A stretch of 45,174 nucleotides of DNA, from the NCBI GenBank assembly GCA_002323515.1, contig DCQQ01000020.1, positions 1 through 45,174 on the forward strand, given 5' to 3'. Positions 39,761 to 45,174 of this stretch are shown here, in pieces (position 1 is the first letter of the stretch; each line of letters opens with the position of its first letter). A program made the position numbers and the translations under genes. The notes beneath the pieces were generated by a model. That model made no database searches. It saw only the letters and a list, made by a program, of their open reading frames with translations, and was not told the origin of the DNA. This DNA comes from Balneolaceae bacterium UBA1514. Lineage in GTDB: Bacteria; Bacteroidota; Rhodothermia; Balneolales; Balneolaceae.

Positions 39761-39787
39761 AAGCAGGCCTATGGGTCTGCTTTTTTT
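39761..39787 (+). terminator. Strong intrinsic terminator
   Basis: AAGCAGGCC and GGTCTGCTT form a 9-bp stem (one G-U) with a TATG tetraloop, followed by seven Ts. It ends the DUF2911 unit. It also rules out the in-frame ATG at 39771 as a natural start of the next gene, as that codon lies inside the hairpin. Confidence 0.92.
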
Positions 39788-39836
39788 ATGCCTACATCCT
39801 TCAAATATGTTATATTTTAGTCCACTAATGTTCCGT

Positions 39837-42299
39837 ATGAACTCTCTCAAAAAATCGTTCATCTTCGTTTTTTCCGGGTACTTTGGACTGCTTTTACTCT
39901 TGAGCAACACTATACTATCCGCACAGTGGGCACCGGGCCAAGATACCCGATACCCTTTTTCTAGTGAGACCTTAGATCGCATAGATGTCGTAATTGATCA
40001 AGATTCATTGGACATTATTCTGCAGGATGGAAATCAACTAAGTGACTATGAATTCCCCGCTACTTTTATCTACACCTACCGAAATATCGACAGTCAGGTT
40101 GTAAGCATAGATACTGTAGAACAAATAGGCTTTCGGCTTCGAGGTAATACCTCCCGTAATTCCGCCAAAAAATCGTTCAAAGTTTCTTTTAATACCTTCC
40201 AAGCCGGACGTCAATACCGGGGTTTGGATAAAATGAATCTGAATGGAGAGCATAACGATCCCACAATGATGCGTGCGTTGCTAAGCTGGGACTTGTTACG
40301 AAAAGTGGATCTACCCGCTCCATCAGCTAACCCAGTTCAATTGTACATTAACCAGGAATACAAAGGTCTATATATTAACGTAGAGCATATAGACGATGAA
40401 TTCGTGCAGCACCGCTTTGGCAGTGATGCGGGAAATCTATACAAAAATTTATATCCTGCCGACCTAAACTATCGCGGTTCCAATCCCGATGCGTACAAGT
40501 TCAGCCCTAGTTGGACCAACAGACGCACTTATGAATTAAAAACCAACACTGAGGAAGATAACTATAGCGATCTTGCAACATTAATCAATATGTTAGAAAA
40601 TACTCCGGATTCCAATTTACCCGAAGAATTAGAAGCCATTCTCAACGTAGATAACACCCTGCGATGGATGGCGGTAGATATTGTCACAGGAAACTGGGAC
40701 AATTACTGGTATAACAAAAATAATTTCTATCTCTACCATAACCCTACGACCAACCGCTTTGAATTCATTCCCTATGACTACGATAATACCTTTGGCATCG
40801 ACTTTATAGGCCCGGATTGGGGGCGACGCTCATGGGAAAACTGGGGACATCCTACCGAGTCCCGACCACTCACCGATCGCCTCATCGGCGTTCCAGAGTA
40901 CCGCCAACGCCTAGATTATTATTTGCGGGAATTAGTTGAAGGGCCCTTTCAGCCCGATAGTTTATTCCCCGAAATCGACTGCTTTGCTTCGTTAATGCTG
41001 CAATCCGCTCGGGATGATGTGTACCGCAGCTATGACTGGGGTTTTTCCCCGGAAAGCTTTCTACTCTCACTGGATCAAGCGCTAGGCGGACATGTAGCCT
41101 ACGGGTTAAAACCCTACATCCAAACCCGATTCGAACATACCAAAACCCAGAATTCAGAAACTCAAATCCTCCCCATTATCCGTAAAGAATGGAGTCAGGT
41201 ACAGTCGTTTAGTAGCGACAGTCTAGCTTTCGAGATAGCTGTGGAATGGATGGACGACGATCCAAAAGAAATAAATTTAGAAGTTAATCTGGGGAATTAT
41301 TCAATATTTATTCCATTAACAAAAGCCTTACAACGACCTGCTGAACTTACAGCCACTCAAGATCAGATGTCATACGCAGATCCTCAATGGGCCGAGCTAT
41401 CCCTAATCATCCCATGGGTGGGGAATGAACTGCGTTATGCCCTGCACGCACGTTCAATTGATGGGGGCGTTAAGCGCTTCCCACGTGCTACGGAAAACTA
41501 CCGAACCCTTGCCGTGCAACGAACCAGTGAAAAGCTACTTATAAATGAACTAATGGCCGATAATGAGACCACCTTACAGGATCCATTTGGTGCTTTTGAA
41601 GACTGGGTGGAGCTATATAATCCAGGCTCATCAGAGTTACAACTAAACGGTTATTATCTAACGGATGACCTGAGTAATCCTGGAAAATGGGCATTGCCCG
41701 ATACCCAACTACAAGCAGGCGAATACCTGCTTATTTGGACCGATAATGACGATGAAGAAGGTAGCTTGCACACAAATTTTGCCCTGAGTAAAAATGGAGA
41801 AGAATTGGGTTTATTCTATAAAGATGTTTTAAACTGGGCACCAGTGGATTCGGTACGATTCCCTGCCTTGGGTAATGATCAAAGTTTCGGGCGATCTCCC
41901 GACCAGGAAGGTTCTTTTGATTATTTACAGTATCCAACCCCAGGCTCAATTAATGCCCAAGCGGTGAATAGTGAACTGCAAGACGGCGAAGCATCTTCAG
42001 ATACCCCTTCGACACTGGAATTACTCCCAAATTATCCAAATCCCTTTAATCCAAGCACTCAAATCCAATTTCGGCTAACAAAAGCCAGTTGGGTAGAGCT
42101 TAGCGTCTACAACGCACAAGGTCAAAAGGTTCGTGAATGGCCCAATAAGTACTTTGGGCCTGGACTTCACTCTGAAACATTCCATGGAGAAGATTTAGCA
42201 AGTGGACTATATTTTCTTCGAGCCGCCATCTATGGCCAAAGAGATCAGGAAACAGGTAGCACGGAACTTCAACATCGCTCCATGCTACTTGTCCGGTGA
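39837..42299 (+). CDS. Secreted CotH-kinase-like protein with lamin-tail domain and T9SS sorting domain
   Basis: The start is taken at 39837 (MNSLKKSFIFVFSGY), which gives a good signal peptide; two in-frame ATGs upstream lie in or near the terminator hairpin. It has 820 residues. The CotH-like domain covers about 35-460, with FRLRGNTSRNSAKKSFKVSF, DNYWYNKNNFYLYHN and EFIPYDYDNTFGIDF, the last resembling the Asp-rich active site of CotH protein kinases. A lamin-tail domain (LLINELMADNETT, about 565-670) follows, then the sorting domain beginning LLPNYPNPFNPST. Such proteins are exported; CotH in Bacillus spores phosphorylates coat proteins, but the extracellular substrate here is unknown. Confidence 0.88.
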   Translation: MNSLKKSFIFVFSGYFGLLLLLSNTILSAQWAPGQDTRYPFSSETLDRIDVVIDQDSLDIILQDGNQLSDYEFPATFIYTYRNIDSQVVSIDTVEQIGFRLRGNTSRNSAKKSFKVSFNTFQAGRQYRGLDKMNLNGEHNDPTMMRALLSWDLLRKVDLPAPSANPVQLYINQEYKGLYINVEHIDDEFVQHRFGSDAGNLYKNLYPADLNYRGSNPDAYKFSPSWTNRRTYELKTNTEEDNYSDLATLINMLENTPDSNLPEELEAILNVDNTLRWMAVDIVTGNWDNYWYNKNNFYLYHNPTTNRFEFIPYDYDNTFGIDFIGPDWGRRSWENWGHPTESRPLTDRLIGVPEYRQRLDYYLRELVEGPFQPDSLFPEIDCFASLMLQSARDDVYRSYDWGFSPESFLLSLDQALGGHVAYGLKPYIQTRFEHTKTQNSETQILPIIRKEWSQVQSFSSDSLAFEIAVEWMDDDPKEINLEVNLGNYSIFIPLTKALQRPAELTATQDQMSYADPQWAELSLIIPWVGNELRYALHARSIDGGVKRFPRATENYRTLAVQRTSEKLLINELMADNETTLQDPFGAFEDWVELYNPGSSELQLNGYYLTDDLSNPGKWALPDTQLQAGEYLLIWTDNDDEEGSLHTNFALSKNGEELGLFYKDVLNWAPVDSVRFPALGNDQSFGRSPDQEGSFDYLQYPTPGSINAQAVNSELQDGEASSDTPSTLELLPNYPNPFNPSTQIQFRLTKASWVELSVYNAQGQKVREWPNKYFGPGLHSETFHGEDLASGLYFLRAAIYGQRDQETGSTELQHRSMLLVR

Positions 42300-42390: not shown

Positions 42391-44868
42391 TTAAAAGCGG
42401 AAACGGGTACTCAACATAAGATTTCGCCCCGCATTAGCTAAAAATCCTGGCTCATCCATACTCCCGTTAAAATCGACATCAACCGGACTCCCTGTAGAAT
42501 AGTACTGTACGTCGAGCAGATTATTGAAATCCATTCGAAGGTCAAATCGTGAACCCTTCCAGCTAATTTGCGCGTTTAGCAAGGTGTAGGCTGGTACCAC
42601 GAAGCTTGGGTTATTGGTAAGCTCCATAAAAGATTCACTCACATATCGCCCTTCCAAACGAATCCCCCATCGGGTTAATGCATCCAGCACCAACGCTTGA
42701 TTGATGATCCAATTAGGACTAAGAATCGCTTCTCGATCTATATAGCTTTGCCCATCGGGTGTGCTGAAAGCATCTATCTGACTCTGCATCCAAGCCAAAC
42801 TCCCTTCCCAACTTAGGCTGCTACTTCGTGAAGAGGATCCTACAGGCAATAAGGACGAAACCAACAGAGTATTCCATTCAAGCTCTGCCCCATAGCGAGC
42901 ACTTGAAGCTATGTTTTCACGTTTTTGGACACCAAATGCGAGTACCTGACCAATAGGAGCGATTTCATCCACAAAATCCATATAAAATAGATTCCCTGAC
43001 ACGGCCATTTTGCTCCGGTTCCAACGAAGACCGGCTTCTATGTTGTTCACAAATTCTGGTCCAAAACTAGTGTTTACCGCCGATTCAAAGTTCTCCTGAA
43101 CAAGGCTAAATCCACCAAATATGTCTACTTTAGTTGGCTCACGACCCATGCGACCCAGAGAAGCAAAGCTACTGAGAGAGGGAGAATGTACAAAAGTTAT
43201 TCCAACCCGAGGGTTAATGAAGGTCCAATCATAAAGTAAATCTCCCTCCGAGGGTCTACCTATAAACTCATAATCAGGTTCTACCGTCAAACGCATACTT
43301 CGAATTTGCAGGTCGGCTTGAACTTGAAGTTTATCTGCCAGCCACTGCGCACGACCAAACCAACTGAGCTCTTCTTTATACGATTGTTCATTGTAATAGG
43401 CCTGCTCAAAATTAGGAGTAACCGATTCCTCATTGATTCGATTAAAACGATAAGCATGCACTCCCGTACTAAGACTCCATTGCTCCTGCTCATAAAAATA
43501 GGTGCTCATAAACCCGTAATGATTATTGTACAGTGGATAATTAATCTGAGCAAGGCTCCCAGTTCCGTCATCATAGGTATAAAAGAAATCTCCACCCGCA
43601 CCCCCATAATACAACGAAGATTGAAGCGAACTGCTCTGGTCAATAGTCATACTGTGTTGAAACTGCACTAATCGTTGCCCAAAATCATCTTTATCGTTAG
43701 GGTCTAACAAGTTGATGCGAGGGTCGGCCTCCATTTGAGGTCTAGTGGCAACTAAATAACCAAGTCCATTCTCTGAATGGGCGTCAAAGGCATTCCATTT
43801 GAACAAATGACGATCTCCAATATAGGCCCCAGAAAAGAAAAAAGAGTAAGCGATGGTAGCGGTGTAATCCCGAAATCCATCGGATTGTAGAGAGCTATAA
43901 CTTCCATATAGCGACCACCGATCATCAATGAGCCCAGAAGAAACACTCCCCGAAAGCCGGTAGGTATTGAAGGCCCCTACACCTACGTTCATTTCGCTAC
44001 CGCGTTCTCTGTCTTGGAGTCGAACCGTTTCAAAGTTCACACTTCCGGCGTAGGAAGCTACCCCATTGGGTGCGATACCCACCCCTCGCTGAATTTGTAT
44101 CGATTCAAAATTAGCTCCCAAGTCGGTAAAATTAGAGAAAAATACGCCATGATCTATCATGTCGTTAAGGGGAATTCCGTTTAAGGTCATGTTGATGCGT
44201 TCCTGGGCAATCCCTCTCAGGCGCATACCCCCATAATTACCCATGTGGGTGCCAGATTCGCTAAACGAAATCACCGACGGACTAAGGCCTTCCAATAAAA
44301 AAATAGGCTGTTGTCCTCGATAACTTTGCTTAAGTTGCACCGGTGATAAGGTTGTTTGACTAACTGGATCGGAGCTTTTTGCCCGAACACCCTTAATAAG
44401 TAGAGCTTCCAGTTCATTATCTGCCTGCAAACGAATGACCCAAAGTTGATCTCCCGCCGCTGCTTTGGCCTTTTCCATTTCTTGAAGAGCTGTTTCCAAT
44501 GGAAAGTGTAATGAGGTATAGCCTACATAGCTAACGTTTAGGTCCAGATCAGCGTAGCCCTCAGTAAAAGCTTCTGACCAAATACCTCGAAATCGCCCGT
44601 TGGCATCGGCGCTAAATCCTTGAAGTACTTTTTCAGGTTCTCCTTTTGGACTTATCCAAATATTTACCCCAATGAGTGCATCACCCTGGTTTAAATCTAG
44701 TATCATTCCGCTTAATTCAATCGCATTTTGTGCAGATCCAGCAGATTTTATTTGTGCCCAAGTAGATACTGGGACTAAGATTGTGATGAGTAAAATAATA
44801 GATCTTCTTAGGCTTCTAATGCGTTTAGATGCCGAATCTATTATTCTTTTTGATAGAATAGAATACAT
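42391..44868 (-). CDS. TonB-dependent outer-membrane receptor under TPP riboswitch control
   Basis: The 825-residue receptor has a signal peptide ending near TWAQ. A carboxypeptidase-like regulatory domain (about 50-150) is followed by the plug domain with GGMRLRGIAQERINMTLNGIPLND and VQIQRGVG-type strands. A 22-strand barrel region rich in aromatic strands ends in NLMLSTRFRF with terminal Phe. Such proteins take up large or scarce ligands with energy from TonB-ExbBD. The TPP riboswitch upstream (44924-45047) points to thiamin, its precursor or a phosphate ester; Bacteroidota riboswitch-linked receptors of this sort have been described from comparative genomics. ATG at 44868 follows GGAGGA. 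It is convergent with the CotH gene. Confidence 0.92.
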   Translation of the reverse strand: MYSILSKRIIDSASKRIRSLRRSIILLITILVPVSTWAQIKSAGSAQNAIELSGMILDLNQGDALIGVNIWISPKGEPEKVLQGFSADANGRFRGIWSEAFTEGYADLDLNVSYVGYTSLHFPLETALQEMEKAKAAAGDQLWVIRLQADNELEALLIKGVRAKSSDPVSQTTLSPVQLKQSYRGQQPIFLLEGLSPSVISFSESGTHMGNYGGMRLRGIAQERINMTLNGIPLNDMIDHGVFFSNFTDLGANFESIQIQRGVGIAPNGVASYAGSVNFETVRLQDRERGSEMNVGVGAFNTYRLSGSVSSGLIDDRWSLYGSYSSLQSDGFRDYTATIAYSFFFSGAYIGDRHLFKWNAFDAHSENGLGYLVATRPQMEADPRINLLDPNDKDDFGQRLVQFQHSMTIDQSSSLQSSLYYGGAGGDFFYTYDDGTGSLAQINYPLYNNHYGFMSTYFYEQEQWSLSTGVHAYRFNRINEESVTPNFEQAYYNEQSYKEELSWFGRAQWLADKLQVQADLQIRSMRLTVEPDYEFIGRPSEGDLLYDWTFINPRVGITFVHSPSLSSFASLGRMGREPTKVDIFGGFSLVQENFESAVNTSFGPEFVNNIEAGLRWNRSKMAVSGNLFYMDFVDEIAPIGQVLAFGVQKRENIASSARYGAELEWNTLLVSSLLPVGSSSRSSSLSWEGSLAWMQSQIDAFSTPDGQSYIDREAILSPNWIINQALVLDALTRWGIRLEGRYVSESFMELTNNPSFVVPAYTLLNAQISWKGSRFDLRMDFNNLLDVQYYSTGSPVDVDFNGSMDEPGFLANAGRNLMLSTRFRF

Positions 44869-44871
44869 GAT

Positions 44872-44899
44872 TCCTCCATTAATTGTTGATTAAGGAGGA
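44872..44899 (-). promoter_or_regulatory. Hairpin able to mask the receptor's Shine-Dalgarno sequence
   Basis: On the minus strand, TCCTCCTTAAT (44899-44889) pairs with ATTAATGGAGGA (44883-44872) with one bulged T and a five-base loop. The second arm contains the GGAGGA ribosome site of the TonB receptor. The first arm can instead pair with GGAGGA (near 44929-44934) of the riboswitch aptamer, so the two foldings compete. Confidence 0.75.
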
Positions 44900-44923
44900 G
44901 GTTAACAAGTCAAGATGTGAACA

Positions 44924-45047
44924 GGTTTTCCTCCGCCGGTATGATCCGGTTCAGGTTCAAGGGTATGATCTCAGTCCAAGTTTGTAAGCCTGTGTTATGC
45001 CATTTAATATGGTGTAACTGAACTCACTCAGTTGGACACCCCTAACC
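44924..45047 (-). promoter_or_regulatory. TPP riboswitch (THI element)
   Basis: Read on the minus strand the leader contains the conserved pieces in order: GGGGTGTCC (45042-45034), CTGAGA (44974-44969), CATACCC, ACCTGA (44956-44951), and the near-consensus run from CCGGATCATACCGG to CGGAGGAA (44950-44929). Flanking GGTT (45047-45044) and AACC (44927-44924) can close stem P1. The P3 arm between GTGTCC and CTGAGA is somewhat long. It controls the TonB receptor about 55 bases downstream. Confidence 0.93.
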
Positions 45048-45174
45048 GCATTTAAAAATACAGTCTTTTATTCACCAGTAGCAAGTAGAATGTTTTTTAG
45101 ATGAGTATTGTTGTATTTTTATAATTCGCTAACAGTTCATTTATGCTTTTTTATATATCTAATAGTTATATGTT
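45048..45174. other. Upstream of the riboswitch, end of window
   Basis: AT-rich sequence that should carry the receptor's promoter. No CAAAnnTA (minus-strand TAnnTTTG) match and no gene start was seen. Confidence 0.4.

Follow-up and report, generated by a model that had tools for sequence, protein, structure and literature searches.

The window analyzed here is a stretch of 45,174 nucleotides from the marine bacterium Balneolaceae bacterium UBA1514. On its minus strand, at positions 42391 to 44868, lies an open reading frame that starts with ATG and encodes a protein of 825 amino acids. The protein carries both a plug domain (PF07715, 27.2 bits) and a beta-barrel domain (PF00593, 88 bits) above the Pfam cut-offs, which together identify a TonB-dependent receptor, and its AlphaFold2 model (mean pLDDT of 81.8) matched TonB-dependent receptors in the PDB. 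We refer to it as a type A receptor, one of two types described below, and predict that its cargo is thiamin. Searches of NCBIfam, PDB sequences, and PDB folds led to distant receptors with mixed ligands, and a ligand call from sequence or fold was dropped. Among known systems, the structures of PqqU/YncD, FecA, and BtuB are counted with the closest. The closest named relatives are from Balneolaceae, with more distant homologs, showing approximately 40 to 45% identity, in Fulvivirga, Ekhidna, and Tunicatimonas, outside the family; most named relatives are designated "TonB-dependent receptor" or "iron complex outermembrane receptor."

The receptor gene stands alone, since the gene downstream of it is convergent (39771 to 42299, plus strand). 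Its product, large and predicted to be secreted, combines CotH kinase, lamin-tail, and Por secretion-tail domains, and a CotH-kinase-like gene seems, by eye, to flank the receptor in several other type A loci. In 48 of the 85 receptor loci of the family, the upstream neighbor is a divergent gene related to M28-family peptidases (Pfam was applied to one). The genome's own thiamin pyrophosphokinase (TPK) and PnuC-family genes are on contigs C13 and C16, away from the receptor.

Upstream of the receptor, on the same strand, is a TPP riboswitch aptamer (RF00059, positions 44911 to 45053). It scored 57.4 bits in Rfam cmscan against a gathering score of 54.3 (E = 8.7e-9), covers the model over its full length (positions 1 to 105), and was the sole over-threshold Rfam match in the whole window. 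The initial annotation had named this aptamer and proposed the RF00059 covariance model as the check on it, a check that the aptamer passed. Its description as near-consensus holds for the core, which is unbroken, but is generous given a P3 arm enlarged by a 52-nt insert and a score 3 bits above the cut-off, and the end coordinate of 45047 proposed there cuts 6 nt into the aptamer. The same annotation had placed nothing but the expression platform between aptamer and receptor, and indeed the 42 nt that separate the aptamer from the ATG hold the platform alone, with a hairpin that sequesters the Shine-Dalgarno (SD) sequence. The aptamer is 142 to 143 nt long in five of the six members of the genus with a match and 109 nt in the sixth (G087); most other Balneolaceae TPP matches are about 90 to 110 nt, and the extra length of the window aptamer is in P3. 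A second TPP riboswitch was not found in the genome (assembly of 1.58 Mb, 67% complete).

The pairing of aptamer and receptor is conserved well beyond this contig. Across 92 Balneolaceae genomes, all 20 type A homologs (E <= 1e-100) have a TPP match upstream on the same strand, 43 to 398 nt before the first aligned residue. A phylum sample of 394 genomes, with the two best candidates scored per genome and a threshold of E <= 1e-80, gave homologs in 21 genomes, 11 inside the family and 10 outside, and all 10 of the latter had an over-cut-off TPP riboswitch upstream on the receptor strand. In total, 30 of 30 examined type A homologs, from three family groups (f1, f30, and f50), are TPP linked, a count that excludes the homologs of about 40 to 45% identity listed by name, such as those of Fulvivirga and Tunicatimonas. 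The linkage is not chance. Within the window's genus, receptor and aptamer are both missing from three of nine genomes, which are 63, 86, and 89% complete.

This linkage bears on whether the receptor could take up some other cargo, such as iron or haem chelates, with TPP control being incidental. The closest NCBIfam models are those for haem, haemoglobin, and related receptors, with scores far below cut-off (58 versus 324 bits), and the structure neighbors of the receptor span many ligands, both of which would be compatible with such a cargo. However, a ligand unrelated to thiamin is difficult to reconcile with a TPP aptamer upstream of 30/30 homologs in three family groups, and we regard another cargo as very improbable.

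TPP-riboswitch-linked TonB receptors for thiamin have already been described under the names omr1 and OMthi (PMC5613172, PMC10881298), which bears out the remark in the initial annotation that riboswitch-linked receptors are known in Bacteroidota. In Bacteroides thetaiotaomicron, deleting both OMthi (BT2390) and the biosynthesis operon makes the cells need more thiamin, and RNA-seq is reported to show no significant change with thiamin for OMthi and the transport operons (PMC5613172). An omr1 gene with a nearby riboswitch is reported for two SAR86 and two Flavobacteriales clusters (PMC10881298). The window receptor, being TonB dependent with a TPP riboswitch directly upstream, is of the omr1/OMthi kind by that linkage, and it is set beside BT2390 on the same ground. 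An operon with pnuT and TPK is usual for OMthi/omr1 but not universal, being split in B. thetaiotaomicron itself. The window receptor differs in that it stands alone, without pnuT-tnr3, and comes from a lineage in which no ThiC was detected.

The window's own genome is only 67% complete, so gene absences lean on its genus, represented by nine genomes that are 63 to 98% complete. The pathway search covered ThiC, ThiE, ThiG, ThiL, TPK, and the PnuC family. ThiC was found in none of the 92 family genomes, while the same search was positive in 13 of 14 controls. In the genus, matches over the cut-off numbered 0/9 for ThiE-family proteins (five partial matches of 20 to 24 bits against a cut-off of 27), 0/9 for ThiG (one weak match), and 0/9 for ThiL (seven below cut-off, two genomes with no match). 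TPK, on the other hand, is present in eight of nine genomes and a PnuC-family transporter in all nine. The window's own TPK passes TIGR01378 (142 bits against a cut-off of 76), and its own PnuC protein passes the PnuC model, whose NCBI name is nicotinamide riboside transporter. The bacterium thus seems unable to make vitamin B1, and the ThiC result suggests that the whole family, which is marine and halophilic, cannot make the thiamin pyrimidine. A Fodinibius strain is credited with thiamine-metabolism orthologs, in general terms, in PMC9909488, and the literature searched, which was mostly outside subscription journals, contained no report of family-wide ThiC absence.

Against this background we consider it about 85% probable that the locus serves thiamin uptake by a thiamin-auxotrophic Balneolaceae bacterium through a riboswitch-controlled receptor, and the conserved linkage and genus gene content support the function of thiamin import put forward in the initial annotation. 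Points that count against it are the three genus genomes without receptor and aptamer, the nicotinamide riboside name of the PnuC model, the distance of the PnuC and TPK genes from each other and from the receptor in this genus, and the SD burial in the unconstrained fold described below. Thiamin, or a phosphate ester hydrolyzed before entry, fits best as the ligand, and from the combined gene content and loci we infer thiamin to be the most economical choice. The initial annotation had listed thiamin, a pyrimidine or thiazole precursor, or a phosphate ester; the TPK kept in 8/9 genomes and the PnuC-family transporter kept in 9/9 fit the first and the last of these, and the pyrimidine and thiazole precursors are unlikely because the genus lacks over-cut-off ThiC, ThiE, and ThiG while TPK is found.

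Import of a precursor or breakdown product (HMP, AmMP, or thiazole) for salvage does have precedent, as pyrimidine salvage is reported in marine bacteria such as Pelagibacterales (PMC10881298), and ThiE-type genes are kept by other family members, with matches of at least 100 bits in 25 of 92 genomes. The number of family genomes over the ThiE cut-off is 35 of 92, those beyond the 25 having short matches of less than 30 bits. With ThiE and ThiG over cut-off in 0/9 genomes of the window's genus, however, the bacteria could not assemble thiamin from precursors with the usual enzymes, and receptor type is not associated with ThiE across the family (4 of 17 genomes with A only versus 18 of 62 with B only; Fisher p = 0.77). 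Salvage is therefore an unlikely role for this receptor. Strong ThiG and ThiE matches lie 4 to 9 kb downstream of a TPP aptamer at seven loci of genus g3 (L117, L146, L161, L171, L173, L181, and L184), and these seven genomes, with ThiG and ThiE but without ThiC, seem to need an outside pyrimidine.

A second alternative, which overlaps with thiamin uptake but has a different main ligand, is that thiamin phosphates (TMP or TPP), such as those released by cell lysis, are what the receptor mainly captures. The TMP kinase ThiL is over cut-off in 76 of the 92 family genomes although strong ThiE occurs in only 25, a pattern that would be sensible if TMP entered cells. In the window's genus, however, ThiL is over cut-off in 0/9 genomes (seven sub-threshold, two none), and TMP would have to be hydrolyzed to thiamin ahead of TPK action; capture of phosphates as the main role is possible but clearly less likely than uptake of thiamin.

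Several other loci join thiamin genes to one another or to the receptor. Of the 37 family genomes that carry PnuC, 13 have it 299 to 560 nt from the TPK gene (pairs picked by eye), and such proximity was found in none of the window's genus, where neither gene is next to the receptor. At five type A loci beyond the genus, the gene after the receptor looks YkoF-like by eye, and the one checked was PF07615 (E = 4.5e-52). At two loci in other families, TPK and then a sodium:solute symporter come after a receptor that is TPP linked but of a different type. By appearance, a TPP riboswitch heads such a receptor, TPK, and symporter operon at L281, L282, and L283, with TPK and the symporter Pfam checked in L282 and L283.

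The leader sequence offers a means of control. After the aptamer comes a candidate anti-SD, CCUCCUCC (44894 to 44901, minus strand), and then a hairpin of 11 bp with one bulge (44872 to 44899, minus strand; fold of -11.0 kcal/mol, z = -4.7) that buries the SD sequence GGAGGA (44872 to 44877, minus strand), which ends 3 nt ahead of the ATG. The 3' strand of P4, also GGAGGA (44929 to 44934, minus strand), is a candidate anti-anti-SD, as seen in the best SD-free fold. With the P2, P4, and P5 pairs enforced, the SD-buried fold has an energy of -48.8 kcal/mol and the SD-free fold one of -36.9, a cost of 11.9 kcal/mol for SD release. When the aptamer pairs are not enforced, the best SD-free fold reaches -48.4 kcal/mol; in it, the P4 3' strand GGAGG (44934 to 44930) pairs with CCUCC (44901 to 44897) and P4 is broken. 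The anti-SD of this leader can thus pair, in alternative folds, with either the SD or the aptamer strand, which is the hallmark of a thiM-type switch. The unconstrained fold of the leader (-53.8 kcal/mol) buries the SD even without ligand, so any switching would have to rely on cotranscriptional folding.

The same elements recur in other leaders. Of 85 receptor leaders, four had no usable motif or linker; among the other 81, CCUCC is present in 66, where shuffles give an expectation of 8.1, and 11 of the 15 linkers that lack it are from genus g3. At least four of the five SD bases fold onto CCUCC in 58 of 58 distinct leader segments, all picked for containing CCUCC (median z = -3.97). All three motifs, namely, the P4 strand, the anti-SD, and the SD, occur in six of six leaders of the window's genus. 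P4 has the sequence GUAGGGAA in many other genera, for which the leader motif comparison gave no evident anti-anti-SD. A longest-complement shuffle test of the linkers was also tried and set aside: it gave p <= 0.05 in 14 of 81 leaders for the SD and 2 of 81 for the anti-anti-SD, with the window's own leader in neither group. That test is weak because the linkers are C and U rich, and motif counts and folding were used instead.

The E. coli thiM TPP riboswitch turns translation off by way of an anti-SD and an anti-anti-SD. Folding of the window leader predicts a translational OFF switch with the same two elements, a likeness drawn from its sequence and computed structures. At high cellular TPP, TPP would bind the aptamer and P4 would form, leaving CCUCC free to pair with the SD, and the receptor would go untranslated. 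At low TPP, the GGAGG strand of P4 would instead pair with CCUCC, freeing the SD so that the receptor would be made. Using TonB energy, the receptor would then draw thiamin, or a phosphate hydrolyzed ahead of the cytoplasm, through the outer membrane; the PnuC-family protein would probably move thiamin over the inner membrane, and TPK would convert it to TPP. A translational switch would also account for the unchanged RNA-seq signal in B. thetaiotaomicron, offered here as a parallel and not as evidence of a response in this bacterium.

A receptor with a generic name thus becomes a testable thiamin importer. A coastal survey lists several Bacteroidota clusters without described B1 synthesis and transport systems (PMC10881298), and the type A finding may bear on that gap.

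The 139 TPP matches in 85 family genomes precede a type A receptor in 20 cases, a type B receptor in 65, and other genes in 28; the remaining 26 have no frame of at least 140 amino acids within 330 nt. Types were assigned by the better BLAST score; G037 and G089, both placed in B, share just 35% and 46% identity with the exemplar of that type. Mean identities, from 83 of the 85 receptors (two fragments were left out), show how far the types have diverged: A and B share 35 to 42% in the plug and 26 to 29% in the barrel within genera and 38% and 27% across genera, versus 65% and 48% for A with A and 69% and 58% for B with B across genera. In a tree of plug plus barrel, A and B fall on opposite sides of a branch with support of 100, in a tree that carries a long-branch warning, with G037_B and G089_B among those branches. 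A genome-wide search for B, scoring the ten best candidates per genome, located it at 65 sites, and at 64 of these a TPP aptamer lies no more than 500 nt upstream. Among the 66 genomes with completeness of 90% or more and contamination of no more than 5%, 13 have A, 53 have B, 64 have either, and only 2 have both, where 10.4 would be expected if the types were independent (P = 5e-9, relatedness ignored). All 92 genomes comprise 20 with A, 66 with B (one a contig-end fragment), 3 with both, and 9 with neither. The family uses two deeply diverged receptor bodies, rarely together, and the window's genus has type A only.

In each of genera g2, g3, g4, g6, and g11, some genomes have A and others B, and pairs of such genomes were compared at the DNA level. 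When G019 (A) is compared with G020 (B), DNA matches of 79 to 81% take in the greater part of the flank upstream, continue through aptamer and leader, and reach 82 nt into the coding sequence; they are lost over the rest of the receptor and return 7 nt beyond the point where the A gene ends, which in the B gene is still 36 nt short of its end. The two leaders are 96.6% identical, and neither genome has the other receptor type anywhere (E <= 1e-100). A similar pattern was seen for G009/G014, G018/G013, and G041/G040, with breaks 44 to 150 nt into the gene, and for G022/G030 the break is 57 nt in and the downstream flank is rearranged. For G032/G033, G006/G008, and G003/G001, the aptamer and some flanks are common and the gene start is not. 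These patterns make g3 and g11 the clear cases of in-place exchange.

Further comparisons point to which parts stay. Leader and signal peptide are common to both types in g3 and g11 (means of 79% DNA and 54% protein), and in g4 the leader is 83% common while the signal peptide is only 35%; in g2, g6, g12, and g18, signal-peptide identity between A and B is only 20 to 27%, versus 18% between genera (G089_B and G037_B were left out of these comparisons). A tree of the N-terminal region, with few columns, shows three type changes and follows receptor type more than genus, so the N-terminal domain mostly travels with the receptor body. A tree of the M28 peptidase that neighbors 48 of the 85 loci shows seven receptor-type changes, at least five on well-supported branches, in a count that omits g3, whose neighbor gene differs.

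Differential loss from an ancestor with both receptors, as three genomes now have, was considered and rejected. A and B leaders inside one genome average 47% identity (three pairs), and loss does not explain leaders 96.6% identical between A and B loci. We read the exchange as recombination in place, and by this sequence comparison the body has been exchanged, with the riboswitch and signal-peptide start kept, in at least two other genera. It is likely that the thiamin slot of Balneolaceae is a riboswitch-controlled cassette site in obligate scavengers of thiamin or its pyrimidine, where aptamer, SD hairpin, and signal peptide stay and the body is swapped repeatedly by recombination between two forms of ancient divergence, with phage or bacteriocin attack or a change of vitamer as the likely driver and control retained. 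The exchange would be a natural experiment on which receptor parts are tied to regulation and which are free to change. A 2009 survey placed predicted thiamin TonB-dependent transporters in three separate regions of a sequence map (PMC2771747), and the available part of that paper makes no mention of receptor replacement at one locus. Nor did the literature searched report repeated in-place receptor exchange.

PnuC is more frequent with A only (12 of 17 genomes) than with B only (22 of 62; p = 0.013), an association set aside as confounded by genus, PnuC being all-or-none in g2, g3, g4, g6, and g11. Eleven other TPP-linked receptors, from 20 regions in other families, are 21 to 32% identical to type A, and they include two type B receptors from the same order. 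One genome holds A and B receptors back to back (G063:C142:3981-4296; L140 and L207), each with its own TPP riboswitch, and there the B frame is interrupted by an internal stop.
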